A stretch of 38,539 bases of DNA from Dehalococcoidia bacterium (lineage in GTDB: Bacteria; Chloroflexota; Dehalococcoidia; GIF9; AB-539-J10), in assembly GCA_021162545.1 (NCBI GenBank), contig JAGGYM010000003.1:1-38539 (forward strand). Direction: 5' to 3'. Both the position numbers and the translations under genes were made by a program. The notes under the pieces were generated by a model. That model saw nothing but the letters and a program-made list of their open reading frames with translations, was not told the DNA's origin and did not search any database. Each line of letters begins with the position of its first letter. Within the stretch, counting starts at the first letter, position 1. This document shows, piece after piece, positions 1,106-3,995 of the stretch.

Positions 1106-3040
1106 ATGTCGATAAACAATACCTTTTCTTTCGGTGGCAAGGTGTTAAAGGTCAATTTAACCACCGGGCAGATATTGACAGAGTCCACCTGGAACTATGC
1201 GCGGAAGTTTCTGGGCGGTAGAGGCGTAGATAACTGGCTTCTGTATAGCGAAGTAAAGCCCTGGGTGGGATCTCTTGATCCCGCCAACAGGTTAATATTC
1301 GGCACCGGCGTCCTCACTGGCACTCTAGCCCCCAGTGCCTGCCGTCACAGCGTGGATGCCAAGAGCCCCATAACGGGCGGCGTGGGTTCAGCAAACTCAT
1401 GCGGGCACTTTGCTGCAGAACTGAAGTACGCCGGATACGATCACGTAGTTTTTCAGGGACGCGCCAGAAGTCCCGTTTACCTGTGGATAAAAGATGACCA
1501 GGTGAAATTGATGAATGCATCACGCGTCTGGGGGAAAACCACGGGAGAAACCAGCGACTTGATACGAGAAGAGCTGGGAGATGAGCAAATTCCAATTGCC
1601 TGTATAGGCCCTGCAGGTGAAAATTTAGCCCGCAGCGCCTGCGTTATGGCCAACCGCGCCAGGGCATCGGGGAGATGCGGACTGGGGGCAGTAATGGGAT
1701 CCAAGAACTTGAAAGCCGTCGCTGTAAGAGGATCCAGAGCGGTGGAAGTAGCGCAACCCGAGAGATTTATGGAGCTCGTGGACAGGGCATGGAAAAAGAT
1801 AAGGGCATCCAATTCGGCGGAACAGCGTAGAATCTGGGGAACTTATAAAACACCAGACCTTTACAACGAGCGAGGCCACCTGCCGGCAAGAAATTTCCAA
1901 GATGAATACGTTAACCCCAAGATCATCAGCAAGGTAACCCCTGAAATCTACAAAAGAGACTATGAAGTTAGAAGGCTGGGATATACCTCATGTCCCATAA
2001 GCTGCAGCCACTTTTACCGGGTTACCGACGGGCCTTATGCAGGCTTGGCCTGTGAAGGAATTGAAATTAACGACCTGATGAATTTCGTCGCTAAATTTGA
2101 AATAGATTACGCTCCAGCGATAATAAATCTGCATTGCCTGTGCAATGAATATGGCCTGGACCAGGACAATGCCTCGGGAGCAATTTCCTGGGCGTTCGAG
2201 TGCTACCAGCGAGGGATTCTTACCCAAAAGGACACTGACGGTCTCGAGCTCCGCTGGAGCGATCATAAGACCGTAGCAGAGATCCTGCGGAAAATAGCAT
2301 ACAGGGAAGGAATCGGAGACCTACTCGCCGAGGGGGCGAAGAGAGCTTCCGACATAGTGGGTAAAGGGTCCGAAAAATTTGCCATCCACGTTAAAGGACA
2401 GGATTCCGTAGAATGCATGAGAGGGTCAGGAAGAAGCTGGGCATTGGGTTGTGCTGTTTCGACTAGGGGTGGAACGCATACAAGAGGTGCCAATTTAATA
2501 GAAGCCATGAATGTCCCTCCCGACATCTGCGAAAAGATCTGGGGAGTACCGAAAATCAATGGACCACTTTCCTATCAAGGTAAAGCTCACTTGGTGGTAT
2601 ATTACGAAAAATTACAAGCTGTTTTAGATAGCCTAGGCATGTGCTTGTTTTGCAGCAACTGGTCCGGTCCCGACCTCCTCGGCCCGGATGATCTGGCCGG
2701 CTTGTATTCAGCTGCCACTGGAGAGGAGATTACTAGCGACGAGCTCATGCTAAAAGGAGAGCTAATTCACAACGTAGAGAAGGCTTTCAATTCACTCCAT
2801 GCCGGCTTTAACCGCAGCGATGATTTCCCTCCTACGAGATTCATGGAAGAGCCCGTTTCGTCAGGTCCAATGAAGGGAGAACTACTCACCCAGAGCGAGT
2901 GGGAGAAAATGCTTGATGAATACTACGAGCTTCATGGATGGGACAAGCAGACAGGTTTACAGACCCAAAAGTGTCTGGAAGATTTGGACTTGAAGCCGGT
3001 AGCCGATGACCTGAGCAGAGTAAAGAGGCTGCCAGCATAG
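1106..3040 (+). CDS. Aldehyde:ferredoxin oxidoreductase family protein (tungsten/molybdenum bis-pterin enzyme)
   Basis: This 644-residue protein matches the AOR family across its length. The N-terminal bis-pterin domain begins GGKVLKVNLTTGQI and contains FGTGVLTGT and a GGVGSANSCG stretch. The cluster-binding region has SCPISCSHFY (C296, C300), and the late cysteine is in DSLGMC (C503). Characterised relatives oxidise aldehydes to acids, or reduce acids, with ferredoxin; the substrate here is unknown. At the position of the first cysteine of the usual CX2CX3C motif the sequence has Tyr293 (codon TAT at 1982-1984), so one [4Fe-4S] ligand may be missing or replaced. It is slightly longer than the ~605-residue Pyrococcus furiosus enzyme. 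Its neighbour is the polyferredoxin; no pterin-synthesis gene is adjacent. Family call firm, substrate not known. Confidence 0.92.
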   Translation: MSINNTFSFGGKVLKVNLTTGQILTESTWNYARKFLGGRGVDNWLLYSEVKPWVGSLDPANRLIFGTGVLTGTLAPSACRHSVDAKSPITGGVGSANSCGHFAAELKYAGYDHVVFQGRARSPVYLWIKDDQVKLMNASRVWGKTTGETSDLIREELGDEQIPIACIGPAGENLARSACVMANRARASGRCGLGAVMGSKNLKAVAVRGSRAVEVAQPERFMELVDRAWKKIRASNSAEQRRIWGTYKTPDLYNERGHLPARNFQDEYVNPKIISKVTPEIYKRDYEVRRLGYTSCPISCSHFYRVTDGPYAGLACEGIEINDLMNFVAKFEIDYAPAIINLHCLCNEYGLDQDNASGAISWAFECYQRGILTQKDTDGLELRWSDHKTVAEILRKIAYREGIGDLLAEGAKRASDIVGKGSEKFAIHVKGQDSVECMRGSGRSWALGCAVSTRGGTHTRGANLIEAMNVPPDICEKIWGVPKINGPLSYQGKAHLVVYYEKLQAVLDSLGMCLFCSNWSGPDLLGPDDLAGLYSAATGEEITSDELMLKGELIHNVEKAFNSLHAGFNRSDDFPPTRFMEEPVSSGPMKGELLTQSEWEKMLDEYYELHGWDKQTGLQTQKCLEDLDLKPVADDLSRVKRLPA

Positions 3041-3296
3041 ATAGACCTGAATGACCTCATGACCTCCGCCAATTATCTGCAGGAAACTAGAACATAGAGA
3101 ACGCGCAACGAATAGCGCTACTTACCGAAAATATTTTCCAGATTGGGCGGTACCCATATCGCCCCCGCAGAATTCAGCTTCAAAAAATGCTGGGCCTTGC
3201 TAAGCACAAAATTGCTGCTTACAATAATGCAATGAGGCCTGGAAGCGACGCTCAATTGCCGGGCGCCAGAACGGAAGAAGGCAAGAAGGTTCTACT
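3041..3296. other. Intergenic stretch, no supported gene
   Basis: Between the AOR stop and the flavodoxin relic I see no start-plus-RBS ORF and no RNA gene. One minus-strand frame stays open for about 57 codons (stop at 3118-3120, containing SNFVLSKAQHFLKL). It has no ATG, and I cannot link it to a family. It may be further debris in a decayed segment. Confidence 0.4.
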
Positions 3297-3458
3297 ATGG
3301 CAAAAGTATCGTCTATGAATCGAAATATGGAACCACCTGACTCGCGGCCCAGGCCATTGCGAAAGAAATGAACCAAATGGCAGGAGCAGAAGCCTTTATC
3401 ACAGAACCCCACGAGATAGATCTCAACCACGTGGGCGTATTCGATGCCGTTGTACTGT
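3297..3458 (+). pseudogene. Flavodoxin-family protein, broken 5' remnant
   Basis: After an AAGAAGG ribosome site, ATGGCAAA is followed one base out of phase by a frame reading SIVYESKYGTT-stop-LAAQAIAKEMNQMAG and then HEIDLNHVGVFDAVVL. This is the start of a flavodoxin: first beta strand, phosphate-binding YESKYGTT loop, first helix, and DAVVL strand. Three lesions are visible. A base is missing in the A-run after the second codon, a TGA interrupts the reading, and homology stops where a truncated transposase begins on the other strand. The gene is therefore dead. It may once have worked with the upstream redox genes, but that is a guess. The ORF track shows nothing here because of the lesions. 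Confidence 0.65.
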
Positions 3459-3824
3459 CGCTCGGCTGATGGAACTAAGCTTCTCTTCGACCTCAGCTGT
3501 GAGAGTAGACTCCTCCCACTCCGCTAGTTGGCACGCTGTGTCCAGTAGCGCTGGTATTAGCTGCTCGGCACAAACATAATCCAGTCTCTCCCAGACTATT
3601 CGTACCACCTCAACCACAGCCACTCCATCCCACCTTGCTTTGAGACGCACCTTCCTGAGAGCACGCTCCAGAATCGGCATATTCATTAGCCGTATCAGAC
3701 TCTTACGGTGTAGTCCGGTCACCTCTCCCATTTCGGTCAGTAATTGAATACGTTCCTTTCGCCCTGATTGGACATACCTCGAGAGAACTAGTTTCAGGTA
3801 TTTTCTTCGTTCGTTTACGCTCAT
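3423..3824 (-). pseudogene. Truncated integrase-type transposase (ISNCY-like), N-terminal fragment
   Basis: The 133-residue ORF starts MSVNERRKYLKLVLSRYVQ and includes TGLHRKSLIRLMN and SSISRATVQR. These resemble the helix-turn-helix N-terminal region of integrase-core transposases of the ISNCY type. The DDE catalytic domain is absent. After SSISRATVQ the reading is simply the antisense of the flavodoxin relic and soon stops, so the true junction is near 3450-3465. Upstream of the start are two copies of a ~27-bp repeat that look like the IS terminus. The piece cannot encode an active transposase. Family assignment is moderate. Confidence 0.6.
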
Positions 3825-3850
3825 CTTTTCGCTGCTCGGAATGATCCTCC

Positions 3851-3912
3851 CTCAGTAACATTTTTATCTGAGTGAATCATACCCCTCTCGGTAACATTTT
3901 AGATGAGTGAAT
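3851..3912. repeat. Two imperfect ~27-bp direct repeats, probable IS terminus
   Basis: CTCAGTAACATTTTTATCTG (3851 onward) and CTCGGTAACATTTTAGATG (3887 onward), each continuing AGTGAAT, are near-identical copies 36 bp apart. They lie just upstream of the truncated transposase start. Tandem copies at an IS end are typical transposase-binding sites, so the outer edge of the element is probably near 3912. The matching end was not found, in keeping with truncation. Confidence 0.55.
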
Positions 3913-3971
3913 ACGACTACAGAGCAAGACAAAGGGAGCAACTTTCTACGCCTACAATATCTCTGCATCTC

Positions 3972-3980
3972 TGCTATAAT
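3972..3980 (+). promoter_or_regulatory. Predicted extended -10 promoter for ftsH
   Basis: TGCTATAAT combines an extended -10 TG with a perfect TATAAT (3975-3980); no good -35 is visible. Transcription would start near 3987, only about 9 nt before the ftsH ATG at 3996. The transcript would have almost no leader, and an AGGTGAG sequence overlaps its 5' end. Assigned by eye. Confidence 0.45.
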
Positions 3981-3995
3981 GATAGGTGAGAAGTT

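Follow-up and report, generated by a model that had tools for sequence, protein, structure and literature searches.

The window analyzed here, 38,539 nucleotides of contig JAGGYM010000003.1 from a Dehalococcoidia bacterium, carries on its forward strand an open reading frame at 1106-3040 with no internal stop codons and a predicted product of 644 amino acids. Both AFOR domains were detected in this product with Pfam, AFOR_N at 242.5 bits (cut-off 29.8) and AFOR_C at 348.6 bits (cut-off 27). An AlphaFold2 model of the protein had a pLDDT of 95.6, and when used as a Foldseek query it matched 9MQX, 1AOR and 9G7J with E < 1e-50 and a TM score of 0.94 by target, as expected for the AOR fold. By both domains and by fold, the protein is an intact large subunit of the AOR/WOR family. 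On the relation to BamB and YdhV, it scored 259 against the NCBIfam model PRK09849, for which the cut-off is 868. The 1.39-Mb source genome encodes three further AOR paralogs, all of which retain the CX2CX3C motif and the late cysteine.

Directly upstream, at 819-1088 on the same strand, lies a gene for a small ferredoxin-type subunit of 89 amino acids, identified from Fer4-type Pfam matches and an alignment of the cysteine pattern. Its eight cysteines, arranged in two motifs, would be enough for two clusters. Most of the superclade described below has a short eight-cysteine ferredoxin gene of this kind upstream of its AOR gene; it is shorter than WorS, the four-cluster subunit known from class II enzymes.

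IS3-type transposase genes occupy positions 2-603, where they are cut by the contig start. The AOR gene is followed at 3041-3990 by a degenerate stretch containing an ORF (3423-3824) that has no Pfam match; two imperfect direct repeats of 16-19 nt, 35-36 bases apart, were seen at 3846-3912. Misbinning of the contig was considered and rejected: the MetG encoded on it is 85% identical to that of a same-genus genome, and thus the contig belongs to the source genome. The nearest same-genus relative of the window AOR, however, is only 43% identical and falls on a different branch of the tree, and the best relatives of the AOR-ferredoxin pair are found in genomes whose titles give Proteobacteria, Pseudomonadota or Deltaproteobacteria, all assigned to one class in the genome collection. 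Since the best matches lie outside the genus and transposase genes adjoin the pair, horizontal acquisition would be the simplest reading. GC content does not differ between the AOR gene and its neighbour, and so lends no support either way on transfer. Elsewhere in the class Dehalococcoidia, some genomes have two AOR genes in tandem (L066, L068 and L070); at L070 the two are separated by a gene for a ferredoxin-type protein of about 180 aa.

Tyrosine at the first cluster-cysteine column

The protein was aligned to the P. furiosus AOR (PfAOR, 1AOR). Residues 292-300 of the window protein read GYTSCPISC, and the column of PfAOR C288, the first cysteine of the cluster motif, is occupied by Tyr293 (codon TAT, 1982-1984). 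The three other cluster ligands are kept: Cys296 (PfAOR C291; codon at 1991-1993), Cys300 (PfAOR C295; 2003-2005) and the late Cys513 (PfAOR C494; 2642-2644), all on the forward strand. The sequence-only reading of this DNA had reported Y293, C296 and C300 within Y-T-S-C-P-I-S-C, and both the translation and the alignment to PfAOR agree with it. It was also right that a late cysteine is present, but its numbers for this residue and the one three positions further on (503 and 506) were ten too low, the correct ones being C513 and C516. Judged from the alignments, the tyrosine is beyond the ordinary variation of the family, because outside the tyrosine clade and a phenylalanine clade introduced below this column holds cysteine in 118 of 120 proteins (and of the two that differ, one is a fragment of a phenylalanine-clade protein), and because a structure paper gives the share of the family with the four-cysteine motif as 99% (PMC10413684).

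A scan with the single sequence gave no matches, but when 84,980 species genomes were scanned with an alignment as the seed, three full-length relatives with tyrosine in this column came to light, each in a different genome: L088 (JADFWK010000203.1; 75% identical, motif GYSVCPISC), L089 (JAUVXZ010000002.1; 64%, GYFACPLYC) and L090 (JAIPEI010000121.1; 63%, GYTSCPVSC). The sequence-only reading had itself set relatives with the tyrosine as a refuting condition, and such relatives do exist. Equivalents of C296, C300 and C513 are kept in all four proteins. In each of the three relatives the gene immediately before the AOR gene encodes a ferredoxin (63, 51 and 53% identical to the window copy), and the pattern of eight cysteines in two motifs can be aligned across the four loci. 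In these three genomes the AOR genes also adjoin, as judged by eye, genes for a transporter (TRAP-like, or resembling ABC systems for branched-chain amino acids) and for organic-acid enzymes. The closest relatives with the full motif (L198-L201) are 48-50% identical to the window protein and have C293, and G99 where that site is covered.

The tyrosine codon is TAT or TAC among the four genes, pN is 0.15-0.27 and pS is saturated, which indicates purifying selection. From these observations and the ferredoxin gene upstream in all four cases, the tyrosine is to be regarded as an inherited and maintained character, and the cluster site is almost certainly a variant conserved in its clade. There is only a very slight chance that it stems from one base change, TGT to TAT, in a gene copy dying beside IS debris, or from an assembly error: transposase genes and a degenerate stretch do lie nearby, but the residue recurs in four separate assemblies with synonymous codon drift, the complete reading frame shows purifying selection, and the ferredoxin gene that partners it is likewise intact. 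Contamination by one sequence is excluded, since the carriers share 63-75% identity. Decay, one of three outcomes offered by the sequence-only reading, is thus effectively excluded; the other two, an altered cluster or a substitute ligand, are supported.

Two other cysteines named in that reading, C316 and the one now numbered C516, were considered as substitutes, and neither fits. C316 is not specific to the tyrosine variant, because it occurs also in relatives with all four cluster cysteines (L084, L109, L172 and L198-L201), and it is missing from the phenylalanine clade. C516 is replaced within the tyrosine clade itself, by Thr in L089 and by Val in L090. The candidate that emerged instead is C99.

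Residue 99 and repeated loss of the first cysteine

A maximum-likelihood tree was built from 81 sequences with columns 97, 99 and 293 left out. The four tyrosine proteins formed one clade (SH-aLRT 99), and proteins with phenylalanine at the first-cysteine column formed a second (14 rows, SH-aLRT 99). A single member of the latter (L105/L176) has tyrosine at 293, and many members show CX4C spacing (FPGCxxGGC) in place of CX3C. Taken broadly, the phenylalanine clade comprises L094, L101, L105, L107, L108, L111-L113, L115-L117, L119-L122, L124, L125 and L131, and judged by record titles it extends over Desulfobacterota, Clostridia, Atribacteria, Chloroflexi and others. The two clades are separated by two lineages with the four-cysteine motif, L093 and L153, so on this tree the first cysteine is lost at least twice. 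L043, of the same superclade, with Gly in place of the first cysteine, is a third loss. The third cysteine is lost in three other members of this superclade (L114, L202 and L104, the last a same-genus homologue of the window genome). The superclade as a whole seems loose at the cluster site.

Column 99, which corresponds to PfAOR G95, was exposed by a scan for residues that are fixed in the tyrosine clade and rare elsewhere. It holds Cys in all four tyrosine-clade proteins (Cys99 of the window protein; codon at 1400-1402, forward strand), Asp in all 18 phenylalanine-clade proteins covering the site, and Gly in 115 of the 120 others. There are 46 near-invariant columns, defined as at least 95% conserved in the remaining proteins. 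The tyrosine clade has fixed departures at just two of these, 99 and 293, with column 385 varying in two of its four members; losses are not scattered over the protein, which again argues against decay. In the phenylalanine clade fixed departures were found at five of the 46 (columns 38, 80, 99, 100 and 293).

The overlap of departing columns between the two clades had a p of 0.028 with column 385 counted, and when the four changes at column 99 were placed randomly by branch length, at least two fell on the three loss branches with p of about 0.0008; both values are indicative only, because column 99 was picked post hoc and the signal consists of two events. An independent-pairs sign test was not significant (two pairs for, none against, one without change), nor could it be with so few events.

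The neighbourhood of this residue is known from characterized enzymes. In the A. aromaticum AOR the equivalent of PfAOR G95 is Gly94, which forms a hydrogen bond with the metallopterin; Arg76, a residue of this pocket in PfAOR, links the cofactor to the cluster (PMC10413684). By alignment, then, the change at residue 99 is in the cofactor pocket, beside a residue able to touch the cluster. The phenylalanine clade has Lys at the position of R76 along with Asp at that of G95.

Relation to known enzymes

The window protein resembles AOR sensu stricto (1AOR, 9MQX, 9G7J and 8C0Z) in its fold, both domains, three of the four cluster cysteines and, among the second-shell residues in PfAOR numbering, T243 and H448. 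It differs in having Tyr for the first cysteine, Cys for G95 and Asn for E313, and in lacking Tyr427, whose column holds a gap or C, S or A. As neither the four-cysteine motif nor the second-shell set T243/E313/Y427/H448 is complete, it should be kept apart from AOR sensu stricto, and one should not assume that the putative enzyme carries out ordinary aldehyde oxidation.

In the WOR5/ASOR of P. furiosus (6X1O, 6X6U) the first cluster cysteine is replaced in the same column and there is likewise a small Fe-S subunit. The replacement there is Asp, in WADYGCPVNC, rather than Tyr, and the small subunit holds four clusters (PMC12096430) as opposed to the two for which the eight cysteines here would suffice. 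P. furiosus WOR4, compared by its description, also lacks one cluster cysteine, but there the change is to Gly and the cluster is Fe3S4 (PMC12096430). On the precedents of WOR5 and WOR4, the cluster site appears to tolerate change. Class II WORs share the adjoining genes for a large and a small Fe-S subunit (WorL and WorS; PMC13328260), but the definition of WorS calls for four [4Fe-4S] clusters (PMC13328260) and the subunit here has eight cysteines. Taken together, the tyrosine variant is an intact and selectively maintained large subunit of the AOR/WOR family, partnered with a short two-cluster ferredoxin and WOR-like in having a small electron-transfer subunit.

Possible arrangements of the cluster

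Our leading reading, unproven and held tentatively, is that the fourth cluster ligand has been relocated from the CX2CX3C loop to residue 99 in the N-terminal pterin-binding loop. A [4Fe-4S] cluster would still be bound through C296, C300 and C513, C99 would supply the fourth ligand, and Tyr293 would fill the space left by the first cysteine. The phenylalanine clade would have undergone a parallel change, with Asp99 as ligand and Phe293 in the vacated position. A phenylalanine side chain cannot bind iron, and since both Phe and Tyr nevertheless occur in that clade, the aromatic residue at 293 looks like a filler. Three points of this picture are inferred: contact of residue 99 with the cluster, the [4Fe-4S] type of the cluster, and a path for electrons from tungsten by way of the cluster to the small ferredoxin subunit. 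In a wider reading, which we hold about as tentatively, the two clades that separately lost the first cysteine each gained a ligand, Cys or Asp, at one pterin-loop position in a different domain. Against relocation, a Cys or Asp in this position might serve the pterin, tungsten or the Mg site rather than the cluster, and L043 lost the first cysteine with column 99 unchanged.

That last protein bears on the main rival, which we consider somewhat unlikely: the cluster bound by C296, C300 and C513 would be [3Fe-4S], or else [4Fe-4S] with one iron left open or bound by water, and C99 would be otherwise used. The Cys-to-Gly change of L043, unaccompanied by any other, suggests that loss of a ligand can be tolerated without replacement, and WOR4, with one cysteine changed to Gly, gives an Fe3S4 EPR signal (PMC12096430). 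A three-cysteine cluster alone, however, leaves unexplained why two of the losses are accompanied by a metal-binding residue at the near-invariant Gly95.

It is improbable that the substitutions have a different purpose altogether, with C99 ligating tungsten or tuning the pterin, the cluster altered or absent, and electrons leaving by another route. Residue 95 does contact the metallopterin (PMC10413684), two of the four second-shell catalytic residues are changed, so that the active site differs overall, and YdhV and BamB have a Cys ligand to the metal, although at a different position (Cys336 in YdhV; PMC12096430). The retention of three of the four cluster cysteines throughout the tyrosine clade speaks for continued binding of a cluster.

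The chance that the phenolate oxygen of Tyr293 is itself the fourth ligand, in place, seems small. An oxygen ligand is possible in exactly this column, since the Asp of WOR5/ASOR is there and its cluster is held by three Cys and one Asp (PMC12096430), and the tyrosine is fixed throughout its clade. The interchange of Phe and Tyr in the phenylalanine clade makes this less likely and suggests space filling, and the tyrosine side chain is bulkier than that of Cys or Asp.

The family is already known, and it is the tyrosine-type cluster site that would be new within it. No description of a Tyr or Phe variant at the first-cysteine column was found in the open-licence literature, which, because only open-licence papers were covered, is weak evidence of absence. 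Few cluster-site variants, namely WOR4 and WOR5, have been characterized, and these observations call for caution against annotating the Tyr and Phe variants as plain aldehyde:ferredoxin oxidoreductases. The coupled changes yield a directly testable prediction, that C99 and D99 are ligands, and the two clades that carry them would be natural experiments on how the ligands of the cluster tune the flow of electrons from tungsten. If ligand relocation is true, it would tie the cluster and the tungsten cofactor pocket together more directly.
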